A stretch of 64,000 bases of DNA, taken from contig NZ_CP033875.1 in NCBI RefSeq assembly GCF_002742645.2, forward strand, positions 930,001-994,000, read 5' to 3'. The notes below the pieces were generated by a model. The model saw only the letters and a program-made list of their open reading frames with translations. It was not told the DNA's origin and ran no database searches. Shown piece by piece: positions 10,662-49,863 of this stretch. A program made the translations under genes and the position numbers. Each line of letters begins with the position of its first letter. Position 1 is the first letter of the stretch. The stretch comes from Caulobacter sp. FWC26 (lineage in GTDB: Bacteria > Pseudomonadota > Alphaproteobacteria > Caulobacterales > Caulobacteraceae).

Positions 10662-10771
10662 GTGTCATCCCGGAAGCCTCGTAGAGGCTATCCGGGACCC
10701 AGGGGTGAAGGAACGCTGTGCGCGCCGCCCCTGGGTCCCGGCTCTACGCTACGCTTAGGCCGGGATGACAC
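10662..10771. repeat. Intergenic palindromic repeat, family A copy 1
   Basis: 110 bp with perfect 12-base terminal inverted repeats (GTGTCATCCCGG / CCGGGATGACAC). Inside is a central stem of GGGACCCAGGGG pairing with CCCCTGGGTCCC, and a small side hairpin (GCCTC-GTA-GAGGC). It lies between the convergent ends of the DUF1295 and DUF72 genes. There is no coding capacity. Confidence 0.9.
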
Positions 10772-13136: not shown

Positions 13137-13246
13137 GTGTCATCCCGGAAGCCTCGGAGAGGCTATCCGGGACCCAGGGGCGGCGCGCACGGCGCTTTGT
13201 CACCCCTGGGTCCCGGCTCTACGCTACGCTCCGGCCGGGATGACAC
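13137..13246. repeat. Intergenic palindromic repeat, family A copy 2
   Basis: 110 bp with terminal GTGTCATCCCGG / CCGGGATGACAC, central GGGACCCAGGGG / CCCCTGGGTCCC and side hairpin GCCTC-GGA-GAGGC. It is nearly identical to copy 1 apart from the tip of the central loop. It lies between the M28 peptidase and serine dehydratase genes, which face the same way. Confidence 0.9.
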
Positions 13247-16365: not shown

Positions 16366-16466
16366 CGTCATCCCGGGCGGCGAAGCCGACCCGGGACCCA
16401 GGGGCCAGAGGCAGTGTGGCGGCCCCTGGGTCCCGGCTCTCCGCTATGCTGCGGCCGGGATGACAC
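16366..16466. repeat. Intergenic palindromic repeat, family A copy 3
   Basis: 101 bp, ends CGTCATCCCGG / CCGGGATGACAC, central stem GGGACCCAGGGGCC / GGCCCCTGGGTCCC. The side hairpin is CGGC-GAA-GCCG; copy 5 has CGAC-GAA-GTCG at the same place, a paired change. It lies between the threonine-dehydratase-like and DSD1-like genes. Confidence 0.9.
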
Positions 16467-31464: not shown

Positions 31465-31575
31465 GTGTCATCCCGGCCGAAGCGCAGCGCAGAGCCGGGA
31501 CCCAGGGGGCGGCCGGCACAGCGCTTCTTCATCTCCTGGGTCCCGGATAGCCTCTGCGAGGCTTCCGGGATGACA
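31465..31575. repeat. Intergenic palindromic repeat, family A copy 4 (reversed)
   Basis: 111 bp, the same element as copies 1 and 2 but in opposite orientation. It opens GTGTCATCCCGGCCGAAGCG, and the side hairpin (GCCTC-TGC-GAGGC) is now at the right end, closing TTCCGGGATGACA. It lies between the epoxide hydrolase start and the EamA transporter end, both minus-strand. Confidence 0.9.
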
Positions 31576-45114: not shown

Positions 45115-46629
45115 CTAGTAAACGTCCCGCCGATACCGCCCTTGGTCCGTCAGGCGCTCCAGACCCTCGGCGCCCAGAATCTGGACCAGCGCGCTGTGAA
45201 CCTCGCGGGACATGCCCTCCAGCGACCCGCAGACATAGATCGCCGCGCCGTTGGCCACCCAGCGGCGCAGGATGTCGGCGGACTCGCGCAGTCGGTGCTG
45301 GACATAAATCCGCTCAGCCTGGTCGCGGGAGAAAGCCAGGTCCAGCCGGTCCAGCAGGCCAGAGGCCTTCCAGGCTTCCAGCTCGGCGCGGTGGAAGTAG
45401 TCGTGGGCGGCGGTGCGCTCGCCGAAGACCAGCCAGTTCCAGCGCACGCCGGCGGCGGCGCGGGCCTTGAGGTGGGCGCGCAGGCCCGCCAGGCCCGTGC
45501 CTGCGCCGATCAGGATCAGGGGCCGGGTGGTCTCGGGGGCGTGGAAGCTGCGGTTTACCCGCACCCGGGCTTCGATCGCCGCGCCGATCGGCGCATAGCG
45601 GCACAGCCAGCCCGAACCCAGGCCCAGCGCGCCGTCGGCGCGGGGCATCAGGCGAACGATCAGCTCGACCCCGCCGTCGCCGGGCAGGGAGGCGATCGAG
45701 TACTCGCGGTGGGGCAGGGGCGTCAGGCGCTGGGCCAGGGCTTCGACGGACAGGCCGCGCAGGGGGGCAAGGTCGCCATCGTGCGGAGGCAGGCGAAGGC
45801 CCGCCAGGGTCTCGGCGGCCTGTGTTGGCAGGTCCAGGGCCGCGACCAGGGCGGCGACCTGCGCCGGATCGTTGCGGGGGCCGATCTCGAGAATGTCGCC
45901 GGCCTGCCAGTCCGCGCCCTTGGGCGGGGTCAGGCGGACATGCCAGGCCTCGCCGCCCGGACTGCCGGGGTTGAGCAGCGTCCGCTCGCCCAGGGTCCAG
46001 ATGTCATAGATCGGCCGCGTCCAGTCCGGCGCGTGGGTGACGCCGGTCAGGGTCGCCAGCTGGACCTGCCAGTGGCGCAGGGCGGCCGGGTCCGCGTCGT
46101 CCACCTCCACGCGGTCGAACAGGGGCTGAGCGCCCTGGCCCGCCAGCCAGGCGTCCAGCGACCGGCCAAAGGCGCAGTAGTGGGCGTAGCTCGAATCCCC
46201 CAGGGCCAGCACGCCGTAACGCAGAGCCGAAAGGTTAGCCTTGGTCTTCATCACGTCGCGAATGAAGGCGCGTGCCGGGTCGGGAGCGTCGCCTTCGCCG
46301 GTGGTGCTGACCAGGAACAGGGCGCGGCCTGCAAGATCGCCGGCGGTTACGGCCGAGAGGTCCTTCAGGGTCACCGGCGCGCCGGCGTCCGACAGGGCCT
46401 TGGCCGTGGCGGTCGCCAGTTCCTCGGCGAAGCCGGTCTGGCTGGCGTAGGCGACGAGCACCGGCTCGCCCGATCCTTGCGACAGGGCGGAGGCGGCCTG
46501 ACGCGCCCGCCGGCCTCGCCAGGTCTCGCGCAGGGCGATGGCCAGGCAGAAGAGGGCGTATAGCACCACGACGACGCCGGCCCAGAACCAGCGACGGGCC
46601 TCGGGGGAGAGGGCGGAAAGGTCGGACAT
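45115..46629 (-). CDS. Membrane-anchored flavodoxin / FAD-NAD(P)H reductase
   Basis: 504 residues from ATG 46629; the start overlaps the ApbE stop (TGATG). One hydrophobic helix (about residues 13-33) is followed by a flavodoxin domain (YASQTGFAEEL; STTGEGDAPD; LGDSSYAHYC) and a CPR/CysJ-like FAD and NAD(P)H module (REYSIASLP; IGAGTGLAGLRAHL). It ends in aromatic Tyr, as reductases of this type do. It probably moves electrons from NADPH through FAD and FMN at the inner membrane. It is the last gene of the putative Fur-controlled operon. Confidence 0.9.
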   Translation of the reverse strand: MSDLSALSPEARRWFWAGVVVVLYALFCLAIALRETWRGRRARQAASALSQGSGEPVLVAYASQTGFAEELATATAKALSDAGAPVTLKDLSAVTAGDLAGRALFLVSTTGEGDAPDPARAFIRDVMKTKANLSALRYGVLALGDSSYAHYCAFGRSLDAWLAGQGAQPLFDRVEVDDADPAALRHWQVQLATLTGVTHAPDWTRPIYDIWTLGERTLLNPGSPGGEAWHVRLTPPKGADWQAGDILEIGPRNDPAQVAALVAALDLPTQAAETLAGLRLPPHDGDLAPLRGLSVEALAQRLTPLPHREYSIASLPGDGGVELIVRLMPRADGALGLGSGWLCRYAPIGAAIEARVRVNRSFHAPETTRPLILIGAGTGLAGLRAHLKARAAAGVRWNWLVFGERTAAHDYFHRAELEAWKASGLLDRLDLAFSRDQAERIYVQHRLRESADILRRWVANGAAIYVCGSLEGMSREVHSALVQILGAEGLERLTDQGRYRRDVY

Positions 46630-47630
46630 CAATCCAGCATCGCCTGCAGGGCGGGCGAGAGCCGTTCCTCCAGACCCGCCGGACCCCGGCTGACGATCAG
46701 GGCGGCCAGGTCGTGGTCGGCGGCGAAGGCCAGGGCGCGCTCCGGCGGCATGACGGTCAGGGCCGTGGCCCAGGCGTCGGCGCTCATGCAGTCCTTGGCC
46801 AGCACCGTGACGCTGACGGTGGCGTGAACGATCGGCGCGCCGGTAGCCGGGTCCAGCGTGTGGGCGTAGCGTCGGCCGCCGTAGTCGAAGAACCGGCGAT
46901 ACTCGCCCGAGGTGGCTACGGCCAGGTCATGCAGGGCGACCAGGGTCTTCCGGGTGTCGTTGGCGGCAGGCTCGAAGGGCGGCGGGCGCTCCAGCTCGAC
47001 CCACCAGGGCTGGCCGTCGGGCTTGGCGCCGATCCCGCGCAGCTCGCCGCCGACCTCGACGAGGTAGCTCTTGACCCCGGCGCGATCCAGCGCAGCGGCG
47101 GCCTGGTCGACGCCAAAACCCTTGGCGATGCCGTTCAAGTCCAGCTTCAGCCCGCCCGGCTGGAACAGGGCCTCGCCGTCCAGCACAAGACGCTTCCAGC
47201 CAGCGGCCTCGCGGCGCGGGGCGAGGCTCTCGGCCTCGGGCGGCTGACCGGCGAACGGACGCGGGCCAAAGCCCCAGAGGTCGGTCAGGGCGCCCAGGGT
47301 CGGATCGAACGCGCCCTCGCTTTGCTCGGCCACCTCAAGAGCCCCGCGCAGCACGGTCAGGGTTTCGGGCGGGAGTGTTGTCCAGCTCCCCGGCGCGGCG
47401 CGGTTGTAGCGTGATAGGTCCGACAGCGGCGCCCAGGGGCTCATCTGGGCGACGACGCCGTCGAGGGCGCGCTGAACGCTCGCCTGCAGGGCGGCAAGGT
47501 CGGTCGTCGCCGGCAGCACCGCCTTGACCGACCAGGTCGTGCCCATGGTGTCCCCGCCGAACGCGCGGATGAGCCCGCCCACGGGGCGGGCGGGCGGGGT
47601 GGCGATGGCGGGGACGAGGACGCGAGGCAT
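46629..47630 (-). CDS. apbE: FAD:protein FMN transferase (ApbE family)
   Basis: 333 residues from ATG 47630. ApbE attaches FMN through a phosphoester to Thr or Ser of (S/D)GA(T/S) motifs in extracytoplasmic proteins, using FAD and Mg2+. Seen are GGDTMGTTWSVKA, LNGIAKGFGVDQAA, VEVGGELRGIG, and YAHTLDPATGAP followed by SADAWATAL, all family hallmarks. A signal peptide is weak (hydrophobic N-terminus only), so export is uncertain. The neighbouring DUF2271 protein carries an SGAT motif and is the likely target. Repeat A5 lies directly upstream. Confidence 0.93.
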   Translation of the reverse strand: MPRVLVPAIATPPARPVGGLIRAFGGDTMGTTWSVKAVLPATTDLAALQASVQRALDGVVAQMSPWAPLSDLSRYNRAAPGSWTTLPPETLTVLRGALEVAEQSEGAFDPTLGALTDLWGFGPRPFAGQPPEAESLAPRREAAGWKRLVLDGEALFQPGGLKLDLNGIAKGFGVDQAAAALDRAGVKSYLVEVGGELRGIGAKPDGQPWWVELERPPPFEPAANDTRKTLVALHDLAVATSGEYRRFFDYGGRRYAHTLDPATGAPIVHATVSVTVLAKDCMSADAWATALTVMPPERALAFAADHDLAALIVSRGPAGLEERLSPALQAMLD

Positions 47631-47650
47631 GGGTTGCAACAACAAAAGCC

Positions 47651-47754
47651 GTGTCATCCCGGGCGACGAAGTCGACCCGGGACCCAGGGGCGAGCGACGG
47701 TGCGTCGGCCCCTGGGTCCCGGCTCGGCGCGCTACGCGCTGGGCCGGGATGACA
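47651..47754. repeat. Intergenic palindromic repeat, family A copy 5
   Basis: 104 bp, ends GTGTCATCCCGGG / CCCGGGATGACA-type arms, central GGGACCCAGGGGC / GCCCCTGGGTCCC. The side hairpin is CGAC-GAA-GTCG, a paired change from CGGC-GAA-GCCG in copy 3. It lies inside the electron-transfer operon, between the DUF4198 and apbE genes. Confidence 0.9.
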
Positions 47755-47758
47755 GTTA

Positions 47759-48631
47759 TTAAGGCCGCTGGGCTTCGATGACGGCGGTGTAGCTGGCGCT
47801 CATGCCGTCGCCCGCGAGCGGAGTGGCCGGCGCGGGCGCTGCGCCCGGGGCGCCGGCCATGCCGGGACCGCCGCGCAAGGTCTCGCCCGAGCGGACCGTG
47901 GCGTTGACCCAGTACATGCCGGCTTCGGGCAGGGTGACCTTCACCGCGCCGTCGGGGCCCGACTTAACCTTGATCTCGCCGGGGGTGGCGCGCCAGCGTG
48001 CGCCGCCAGGGACGAAGGTGACTTCCAGATTGGCGGCCGGCTTGCCGTCGAGCACGAACTTGAAGGTGGCCGCTTCGGTGGCGATGACGTCGGTCGGATG
48101 GGTGACCGGGACCAGCTCAAGGCCCTGGCCCGTCGGCTTTAGGGCCTCAAGGGTCGGCTTGTCGCGCGTGACGAAGGTCTCGTTGCGGCTGCTGGACTTG
48201 ATGGTCTTCAGATCGGCGGCGCCGGCGGGGACCTGCTTGGCGAAGTCTTCGGGCGAACCGCGGAAGCGCTTGACCTCGCCGTTCTCGGTCCAGCTGGCCA
48301 TGACGCTGTTGCTGGCGGTGTAGATCTTGTAGGTGCCCGGCTTGGTCAGCTGGACGTCGAAGGTCGAGCGGTACTGGCCGGTGGCGGCGTTCTGGATCTT
48401 GTCCGCCGCCCCGTCGGGCGCGATCACCTTGATCCCGTCCGTGCGCATCGCGCGGTGGTCGGGATAGAACAGCTCGTTGGAAATGGCCGCGTCCACGGTC
48501 ACCCAGGCGCTGTCGCCTGACAAGGTGGTGAAGGCCGGCACCATCCAGCCCCGGTGGGCGGAGGCCGACATCGGCAGGGCCAGCGCAACGCCAACGGCGG
48601 CGACAGCGAGCAGGCGCGTCTTGAAGGTCAT
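47759..48631 (-). CDS. DUF4198 domain periplasmic protein
   Basis: 290 residues from ATG 48631; GTG 48643, which overlaps the DUF2271 stop, is possible. A signal peptide (MTFKTRLLAVAAVGVALALP) ends near SASAH. The start of the mature protein, HRGWMVPAFTTLSGDSAWVTV, is characteristic of DUF4198, a family often found near TonB receptors and metal systems (some members are nickel- or cobalt-linked). A beta-sandwich is likely. Function unproven; here it belongs to the ApbE/DUF2271/PepSY operon. Confidence 0.88.
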   Translation of the reverse strand: MTFKTRLLAVAAVGVALALPMSASAHRGWMVPAFTTLSGDSAWVTVDAAISNELFYPDHRAMRTDGIKVIAPDGAADKIQNAATGQYRSTFDVQLTKPGTYKIYTASNSVMASWTENGEVKRFRGSPEDFAKQVPAGAADLKTIKSSSRNETFVTRDKPTLEALKPTGQGLELVPVTHPTDVIATEAATFKFVLDGKPAANLEVTFVPGGARWRATPGEIKVKSGPDGAVKVTLPEAGMYWVNATVRSGETLRGGPGMAGAPGAAPAPATPLAGDGMSASYTAVIEAQRP

Positions 48632-48639
48632 GGCTTTTC

Positions 48640-49155
48640 TCACTTCACGGAAACGGTGACGGCGCCCAGCTCAGCCGAGCCCTTGGCCGAAGCGGGCTTG
48701 CCGGGCTTGCCCCAGACGAACGGCACACGGACGGCCTCATGACCGCCGACTTCGCGGGCGGCCTCGACCACGAGGTTGTACTGACCGGGTTTAAGGCTCT
48801 TGAGCGCGCCCTTGGCGCCGGAGAAGACCAGCTTTTGGGGGCCTGGCGCACGCGTGGCGCCGCTGACGCCGTCGGCGGGGAAGCTCATCTCGCGGCCGGC
48901 CTTGCGCCACCACTGGCGCATGTCCTTGAGCCACTTGGCGCCGTTGTCCTCGCGGTTCTTGGCGTCATACCAGACGGCCAGGGTGCCGGCGGCGGTGGAA
49001 TCGGCCGGGTTCTCGATCCAGATGGCCACGTAGGGCTTGTGGTACTCGGCCACATTCAGCTTGGGCACCTCGACCGTGACATTGAGGTCGGCGGCCATCG
49101 CCGGAGCGCCGACGGCGGCGCCGGCGAAGGTGAGCAGGGAAATCGAACGCTTCAC
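48640..49155 (-). CDS. DUF2271 domain periplasmic protein with SGAT flavinylation-type motif
   Basis: 171 residues from GTG 49155, which follows the PepSY gene stop by 10 bases and begins a signal peptide (KRSISLLTFAGAAVGAPAMA). The body is a beta-sandwich: LNVTVEVPKLNVAEYHKPYV, AVWYDAKNRED and later LVVEAAREVGGHEAVRVPF. DGVSGATRAPG puts S98-G99-A100-T101 in the form used by ApbE to attach FMN. With apbE two genes away, this is the likely flavin carrier in the periplasm. The attachment itself is inferred. Confidence 0.87.
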   Translation of the reverse strand: MKRSISLLTFAGAAVGAPAMAADLNVTVEVPKLNVAEYHKPYVAIWIENPADSTAAGTLAVWYDAKNREDNGAKWLKDMRQWWRKAGREMSFPADGVSGATRAPGPQKLVFSGAKGALKSLKPGQYNLVVEAAREVGGHEAVRVPFVWGKPGKPASAKGSAELGAVTVSVK

Positions 49156-49165
49156 GGGGTCTGCC

Positions 49166-49795
49166 TCAGAGGTGGACGAACAGGATGACAAGAAGGATGG
49201 GCGCGACCAGGCCCAGCCCGACCAGAGGCCAGGTCAGCGGCCGCGCGCGGGCGTGGAACTGCAGCAGGATCAGGCCGGTGATCGTGAAGATCACGCAGGC
49301 GACCGCGAAGATGTCGATGAACCAGCTCCAGGCCGTGCCGGTGTTGCGGCCCTTGTGCAGGTCGTTCAGCAGGCTGATCGCGCCGCGCGTGGTCTTTTCG
49401 TGCTCCACCGCGCCGGTCTCGCGATCGATCGAGACCCAGGCGTCTCCGCCGGGCCGGGCCAGGGCCACATAGACCTCATCGGCCGACCATTCGCCCTCGC
49501 GCCCGGCCACGTCTGCGCCGACGGCCTCGTCGAGGAACGGCTCCAGCTGGACGGGCAGGGGGCGCTTACCCTCCTCGGGCCCTTTGGCCAGCACCGCCAG
49601 CAGCTCCGGTGGCAGGGTGGCTTTGCGGCTGACGACCTTCGGCTCGGCCTCGATCTGGCCTGCGTGGTTCAGGGTGATGCCCGTGATCGCGAACAACAAC
49701 ATACCGATCAGCGACACGGCCGCGCTGATCCAGTGCCACTGGTGCAACTGCTTCAGCCAGAACGAGCGGCGATGTTGAGCGGCGGCGGATTTCAC
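49166..49795 (-). CDS. PepSY-associated transmembrane protein
   Basis: 209 residues from GTG 49795. Helix 1 (about residues 20-42; ISAAVSLIGMLLFAITGITLN) follows a histidine-containing start (KQLHQWHW). A periplasmic PepSY-like loop follows, then LLNDLHKGRNTG and two more helices at the C-terminus. The histidines at helix ends are in the pattern used for haem in related membrane ferric reductases. It is the first gene of the operon, 44 bp after the Fur-like box, and probably passes electrons across the inner membrane. Confidence 0.85.
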   Translation of the reverse strand: MKSAAAQHRRSFWLKQLHQWHWISAAVSLIGMLLFAITGITLNHAGQIEAEPKVVSRKATLPPELLAVLAKGPEEGKRPLPVQLEPFLDEAVGADVAGREGEWSADEVYVALARPGGDAWVSIDRETGAVEHEKTTRGAISLLNDLHKGRNTGTAWSWFIDIFAVACVIFTITGLILLQFHARARPLTWPLVGLGLVAPILLVILFVHL

Positions 49796-49838
49796 AGGCG
49801 GACGCGACCGGGGCTAGGCGACGGAGAAACCGTCCTTA

Positions 49839-49863
49839 CTTGAGAACGAATTGCAATTTCAAG
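49839..49863 (-). promoter_or_regulatory. Fur-like box upstream of the PepSY/ApbE operon
   Basis: On the minus strand CTTGAAATTGCAATTCGTTC followed by TCAAG. It has a palindromic AATTGCAATT core and CTTGA/TCAAG outer arms. The part TTGCAATTCGTTCTCAA resembles Fur boxes of the TTGCAAATCATTCTCAA kind. It lies 44 bp before the PepSY gene start. It is one of the most AT-rich spots in the window. Confidence 0.6.

Follow-up and report, generated by a model that had tools for sequence, protein, structure and literature searches.

A Fur-box operon of Caulobacter sp. FWC26 predicted to encode a ferric-reductase relay with a signal-less ApbE flavin transferase

We analyzed a 64,000-nucleotide stretch of the Caulobacter sp. 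FWC26 genome (contig NZ_CP033875.1, positions 930,001 to 994,000; hereafter the window), focusing on five minus-strand genes that encode, in order, a PepSY-like membrane protein, DUF2271, DUF4198, ApbE and a transmembrane (TM)-flavodoxin-FNR reductase. In the reading that we prefer, with a probability of roughly 70%, these genes form a Fur-repressed assimilatory ferric-reductase relay whose flavin carrier is loaded by a cytosolic ApbE. The membrane-anchored flavodoxin/FNR protein would take electrons from cytosolic NAD(P)H and pass them to the PepSY-like protein. There, two haems placed across the membrane, each held by a histidine pair, would reduce the flavin mononucleotide (FMN) that periplasmic DUF2271 carries covalently on Thr101, and this FMN would in turn reduce ferric iron or its chelates. 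The released metal would probably be handled by DUF4198, a putative metal-binding protein whose mature form is expected to begin with histidine, and FeoB, which is found in the host genome (4.87 megabases, labeled G000), would import Fe(II). The most likely place for ApbE to flavinylate the DUF2271 precursor is the cytosol, ahead of Sec export. Within this scheme, we infer the electron path, the haem pairing, the iron substrate, the role of DUF4198 and the compartment of flavinylation. Gene content and order, the promoter site, the conserved residues and the absence of an ApbE signal peptide were obtained directly. The features are as follows.

49839 to 49863, minus strand: Fur box CTTGAAATTGCAATTCGTTCTCAAG, a 25-base-pair (bp) near-palindrome; 12/19 to the E. 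coli consensus; pattern in 39/41 promoters
49166 to 49795, minus strand: PepSY-like inner-membrane protein; GTG start, 209 residues; PF16357 (PepSY_TM_like_2), 282.5 bits; PF03929, 45.9 bits
48640 to 49155, minus strand: DUF2271 periplasmic carrier; GTG start, 171 residues; signal-like N-terminus; PF10029, 161.8 bits
48853 to 48864, minus strand: SGAT flavinylation site of DUF2271 (residues 98-101), with Thr101 as the expected FMN acceptor
47759 to 48631, minus strand: DUF4198 periplasmic beta protein; PF10670, 186.5 bits; signal peptide; the expected mature N-terminus is the His after ASA
46629 to 47630, minus strand: ApbE flavin transferase without signal peptide; PF02424, 284.6 bits; start ATG 47630 (MPRVLVP), alternative ATG 47657
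45115 to 46629, minus strand: diflavin reductase; N-terminal TM helix (by eye), flavodoxin domain (FMN) and CysJ-like FNR domain; PF00258, PF00175

A Pfam scan of the five proteins, in which the families named above scored over their curated cut-offs, confirmed the families, place and strand proposed in a first-pass annotation of this DNA. That annotation had also pointed to an SGAT motif in DUF2271, which is indeed the sole [ST]GA[ST] among the five proteins. Its description of the genes as joined by overlaps or short gaps holds for the other junctions, the reductase ATG overlapping the apbE stop codon, but not for that between DUF4198 and apbE, where 128 bp with a palindromic repeat intervene.

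The first-pass annotation overlooked a feature of ApbE that alters the maturation model. By sequence, the protein belongs to the ApbE family of FAD (flavin adenine dinucleotide):protein FMN transferases (PF02424; match to the solved FMN transferase 6nxi with E 2.3e-62). No signal peptide or lipobox was found from any in-frame ATG, GTG or TTG start, which places the window ApbE outside the secreted or lipoprotein class. The start at ATG 47630 is the conserved one, rather than ATG 47657, which falls within the palindromic repeat. Among the genus loci, those closest to the window have an ApbE that starts with M[PTNS]RVL[VI]P or a close variant without a hydrophobic segment, and in some of these a stop codon directly precedes the start Met. 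Signal-less ApbEs (that of the window and many of L205-L284) also have a recurring RV[LFAV][IV]P-like N-terminal motif, located some 20-25 residues ahead of their MGTTW core.

Signals were scored not with SignalP but with a home-made detector, which tries every in-frame start and was run with loose and stricter rules. The loose detector reported a signal in 12 of 81 stand-alone ApbEs, 11 of them lying, by eye, within or at the catalytic core. The stricter detector reported one in 1 of 80 stand-alone DUF2271-linked ApbEs from the genus and phylum and in 3 of 73 from the loci collected by name. ApbEs unlinked to DUF2271 scored otherwise: the stricter detector found a signal in 22/24 of them and in 0/5 linked ApbEs of the same control set, and the loose detector in 24/25 and 0/5, respectively (one of the 25 unlinked controls is missing from the stricter set, and one ApbE in each of two sets lacked an aligned core). 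At most 35 codons separate the upstream stop codon, or the locus edge, from the catalytic core in 27 of the 80 linked ApbEs. Where ApbE and DUF2271 are fused into one protein, the signal is kept in 6 of 7 cases.

In a phylogeny of 111 ApbEs, the linked enzymes without a signal fall into two groups of 66 and 11 members, split by ordinary signal-bearing ApbEs with a node support of 0.97; the 66-member group is itself poorly supported (0.46). Parsimony gives three state changes, one being the unlinked control L199. This distribution suggests at least two origins of the cytosolic arrangement, with the ApbE linked to DUF2271 in each case. The tree, which omits L044 and L049, is midpoint-rooted, and this root does not prove loss rather than gain of the signal.

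Given that ApbE lacks an export signal, FMN attachment most likely takes place in the cytosol. We consider it reasonably probable that, in systems with a linked signal-less ApbE, this dedicated enzyme flavinylates the DUF2271 precursor before Sec export; the carrier would then leave the cytosol loaded and a FAD exporter would be unneeded. The content of the host genome argues for cytosolic loading, since G000 has a single ApbE match and a single DUF2271 match, with no FMN_bind and no NqrB/RnfD match. Across the genus, ApbE occurs in 50 of 61 genomes, 49 of which have exactly one. In 58 of the 61, ApbE and DUF2271 are either both present (48) or both absent (10); G004 has DUF2271 only, G042 and G053 ApbE only. 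Of ten further genomes searched that carry a linked stand-alone ApbE, eight have no other ApbE match, and G118 and G122 have a second one. Published work, cited throughout from passages of the papers named, indicates that such a modification is feasible, because co-expression of signal-truncated DUF2271 and ApbE in E. coli yielded flavinylated DUF2271 (PMC8238504). The DUF2271 signals resemble ordinary Sec signals, and the chain would therefore cross the membrane with FMN attached.

The loose detector found a signal in 87 of 97 unfused DUF2271 proteins, the window protein among them. Covalent FMN on DUF2271 has been demonstrated for the A. ursilacus protein, modified by its ApbE (PMC8238504). 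T101 is invariant in 15 sequences, while the residues flanking the acceptor Thr vary (SGAT, TGAT, SSAT, SGPT, TGPT and others). The published [ST]GA[ST] motif is missing in 46 of 104 DUF2271 segments, 34 of these among the 81 with an ApbE match in the locus; this means either that the motif is looser than published or that not all of these proteins are flavinylated. In L163, L164, L167 and L168, which are fused PepSY-reductase operons, the acceptor is Ser (DG[IL][ST]GAS), as opposed to Thr in the main group.

A Fur-like box had been noted ahead of the first gene, and the promoter comparison upholds it. The box matches 12/19 positions of the E. coli Fur consensus. When the mononucleotides of the 140-bp upstream region were shuffled, 38 of 2000 shuffles scored as high, and the window holds 10 sites at 12/19 or better, so the evidence from the score alone is modest. 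Conservation is the stronger evidence. Callable starts were available for 41 of 46 genus loci, window included (the other five gave none), and the pattern CTTGnnnTTGCAAnnCGnTCTCA occurs in 39 of these 41 promoters, about 60-76 bp upstream. In the promoter alignment, most box positions have an identity of 0.8-1.0, and the flanks mostly 0.3-0.6.

Fur repression and EDTA (ethylenediaminetetraacetic acid) fitness, like the flavinylation of a DUF2271, are taken from orthologs and relatives. The C. crescentus operon CC3059-63 (CCNA_03155-03159) is the ortholog of the window operon, with the same five families in the same order, the GTG start and the upstream Fur box, and no essential difference is apparent from the passages of PMC3751524 and PMC11870441. 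It is directly repressed by Fur, as judged by array, lacZ fusion and electrophoretic mobility shift assay (EMSA), and rises 12-51 fold on iron limitation or fur mutation; its promoter is bound by Fur in EMSA and derepressed in the fur mutant (PMC3751524). Of the two primers of that promoter study, the reverse one is identical to the window sequence at 49779-49798, and the forward one is not an exact match. Insertion mutants of CCNA_03155-03159 have a fitness defect with EDTA (PMC11870441). The table that contains the ortholog operon also lists riboflavin synthesis genes (PMC3751524), which would fit a raised flavin demand. A role of the operon in iron reduction is likely. The iron-regulated trans-envelope flavin route for iron reduction put forward in the first-pass annotation gains support from the published Fur repression and EDTA defects of the ortholog, and the passages propose the same route.

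The membrane step would be carried by the PepSY-like protein, which shares 97% identity with a protein named from C. vibrioides and whose PepSY_TM score of 45.9 exceeds the cut-off of 28.8. All 56 PepSY sequences compared have H21 and H147, and H44, H181 and H208 are each kept in at least 90% of them. An AlphaFold2 model (mean predicted local distance difference test score 87.8) places helices at residues 4-43, 139-148, 154-182 and 188-208. By analogy with FoxB, we propose a di-haem membrane cytochrome with two bis-His sites, putatively H21/H181 and H44/H147.

The reductase has its best solved relatives among CysJ flavoproteins. Its Flavodoxin_1 and NAD_binding_1 matches score 93.8 and 35.5 bits, and its FAD_binding_1 match (19.9 bits) lies under the curated cut-off. 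In other Proteobacteria, DUF2271 adjoins ApbE and one protein with PepSY_TM, flavodoxin and NAD-binding domains; this fusion was present in 4/4 long reductases scanned, which were picked by their N-termini. At the sequence level, we take such fusions as the strongest indication that the reductase of the window, a separate protein, feeds the PepSY protein.

The five families are kept together elsewhere. The window order recurs in 34 of 45 genus loci; this number includes L044, where ApbE is split in two. The other 11 comprise four apparently cut by contig ends, three without a detected reductase, one with DUF2271 and DUF4198 only, and three divergent or partial loci. Over genus and phylum, the exact order is found in 52 of 104 countable loci (112 loci, less 8 in which our own hidden Markov model (HMM) found no DUF2271; the HMMs were built without L033, L035, L043, L044 and L049). 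Of 80 named loci, 43 have it as well, and another 21 depart from it solely in an undetected reductase; these 80 are the best of 577 and overlap the genus loci, so the counts are not independent. The named set includes Caulobacter, Phenylobacterium, Cupriavidus, Undibacterium, Herbaspirillum, Hyphomicrobium, Sphingomonas, Bordetella, Pseudomonas and Lysobacter. In the phylum sample of 398 genomes, DUF2271 scored above cut-off in 65, and the system is therefore common, though far from universal. In L113, L116, L122, L128, L130, L133, L144 and L147, PepSY, DUF2271, DUF4198 and the reductase are present, with no room for ApbE between DUF4198 and the reductase. L058 (genome G057) holds a second DUF2271-DUF4198 pair, beside which PepSY, ApbE and the reductase were not detected, and the ApbE of a C. 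vibrioides metagenome-assembled genome (L044/L206) is read in two frames and was left in pieces.

The DUF4198 model is a beta protein resembling IsDUF4198 (Foldseek match to 9gcb, E 1.1e-8, TM-scores 0.46/0.60) and Zcp (9mhk, E 8.9e-14). IsDUF4198 binds Ni(II) through its N-terminal His and a second His (PMC12537917). The window protein combines the predicted fold with AHRGW after ASA, so that His would be first after cleavage. His is first after the signal peptide in 91 of 96 relatives (L071 and L154 corrected by eye), and the loose detector found a signal peptide in 96/96. In the Caulobacter loci L058, L067, L068, L069 and L071, the N-terminal His and the His of [FY]xxH are lost together, which suggests that both belong to one shared metal site.

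A number of observations weigh against the proposed relay, several of them concerning the compartment. The linked ApbEs L126 and L282, placed beside the 66-member group on the tree, carry clear signals. The cognate ApbE of Meheust et al. is described as "signal peptide-truncated" and is presumably exported natively (PMC8238504). From these two lines, some DUF2271-linked ApbEs appear to be exported. No ApbE match was found in 23 of the 104 DUF2271 loci, at least three of them owing to contig ends. In two such genomes, G083 (L122) and G126 (L132), the sole ApbE lies elsewhere and bears a signal, and it may serve DUF2271 after export there, if that protein is flavinylated at all. In addition, our detector scores no signal in 10 of 97 unfused DUF2271 proteins. 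Both compartments may thus be in use across the family, which limits the generality of cytosolic loading. Other points concern the electron path and the metal. FoxB was not among the Foldseek matches of the PepSY model. IsDUF4198 prefers Ni(II), with a dissociation constant of 18 nM (PMC12537917), and in a zur-mutant table the ortholog DUF2271 and DUF4198 genes have ratios of 0.50 and 0.41. Neither a ferric reductase nor a flavin assay of the operon was found in the literature passages, nor a ferric reductase assay in the literature listing for CCNA_03155, and the remark of the first-pass annotation that the exact job of the operon is not known is still fair.

These points bear on alternative explanations. 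One keeps the same relay and has ApbE exported by a non-classical route or an unreadable signal, with DUF2271 flavinylated after export, like in systems whose ApbE is exported. L126, L282 and the signal-bearing sole ApbEs of G083 and G126, away from DUF2271, favor it, but we regard it as unlikely for the window, given the lack of a signal in 79/80 and 70/73 stand-alone linked ApbEs in two separate tree groups and the short distance before the catalytic core in 27/80. Hitch-hiking on the twin-arginine (Tat) route is likewise improbable, as RRx[hydrophobic] occurs in 5 of 87 DUF2271 signals. A second alternative, to which we assign a similarly low likelihood, is that the final acceptor is another metal or substrate (copper, nickel/cobalt or zinc, handled via DUF4198, or a general periplasmic reductant) and that iron control merely spares iron proteins when iron is short. 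The Ni(II) affinity of IsDUF4198, the match of the DUF4198 model to Zcp entries titled with bound Zn, Cu and Co, and the zur-mutant ratios speak for it; direct Fur repression, the EDTA-sensitive mutants (PMC3751524, PMC11870441) and iron-transport neighborhoods in other genomes speak against it. Finally, published descriptions of PepSY proteins include siderophore permeases (PMC7190382), but a ferri-siderophore permease in place of an electron carrier is very improbable for a protein of only 209 residues with conserved membrane-edge histidines that is linked to a flavinylation substrate and whose relatives include fusions of PepSY_TM to a flavodoxin-FNR reductase.

For the C. crescentus ortholog, both the operon and its role as an iron-regulated reductase are already known in outline. 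The PepSY-like flavinylation systems defined by Meheust et al. in 2021 share with the window the PepSY-like protein, DUF2271 with [ST]GA[ST], DUF4198, ApbE and the iron link (PMC8238504). As in those systems, the window has a PF03929/PF16357 protein in a cluster with ApbE and DUF2271, and at least one exported target gene, DUF2271. The electron donor differs: in the window it is a separate TM-flavodoxin-FNR protein, whereas PMC8238504 notes PepSY proteins with a NAD-binding domain; the term "sulfite reductase" is not in its main text. With the PepSY siderophore reductases FoxB and HiuB, for which His-ligated haem sites in the membrane domain are proposed (PMC13001220), the operon shares the PepSY family; comparable haem sites are putative here, as is a role in iron reduction. 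In contrast to these, the operon has the short PepSY_TM_like_2 form and its own flavin carrier, transferase and donor reductase, with no TonB receptor among its five genes.

The compartment of flavinylation, with a signal-less ApbE and an exported DUF2271, seems unreported. A missing ApbE signal peptide is not mentioned for CC3059-63 in the passages of PMC3751524 and PMC11870441, and our literature searches did not find cytosolic loading of DUF2271 stated, although the raw fact may be contained in the supplementary annotations of Meheust et al. (2021). A 2025 review in the Journal of Biological Chemistry describes ApbE as a membrane-bound periplasmic enzyme that puts FMN on secreted targets and needs FAD outside the cytosol, and cytosolic ApbEs for the soluble fumarate reductase of Klebsiella and in trypanosomatids (PMC12052999). 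The Klebsiella ApbE is signal-less like that of the window, but its substrate remains cytosolic, whereas the only motif-bearing protein of the window operon is exported. The 2021 survey counted 2833 PepSY-like clusters with DUF2271; it assigned extracytosolic components by signal peptides, and its cluster rule needs one exported target gene only (PMC8238504). Should cytosolic FMN loading occur in many such clusters, Sec would have to transport chains with covalently attached flavin, and these enzymes would be missed by any count that demands a signal peptide on ApbE. With a single ApbE in 49 of the 50 ApbE-bearing genus genomes, a simple test in a laboratory strain is possible.

Between DUF4198 and apbE lies a palindromic repeat.

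47653 to 47753, no strand assigned: palindromic repeat; similar stretches at 16372-16465, 10692-10770, 13167-13245 and 31466-31511 of the window

The repeat spans about 100 bp, holds the upstream alternative apbE ATG, and has a predicted RNA minimum free energy of -66.8 kcal/mol for 47658-47760; it could alter expression of the last two genes of the operon. On one side the operon is flanked by a HWE histidine kinase gene, and on the other by a MobA-like gene on the plus strand. A second DUF4198 gene of G000 (C3:3008977-3009621, 139.4 bits) is perhaps the counterpart of the Fur-regulated CC2193/CCNA_02275.

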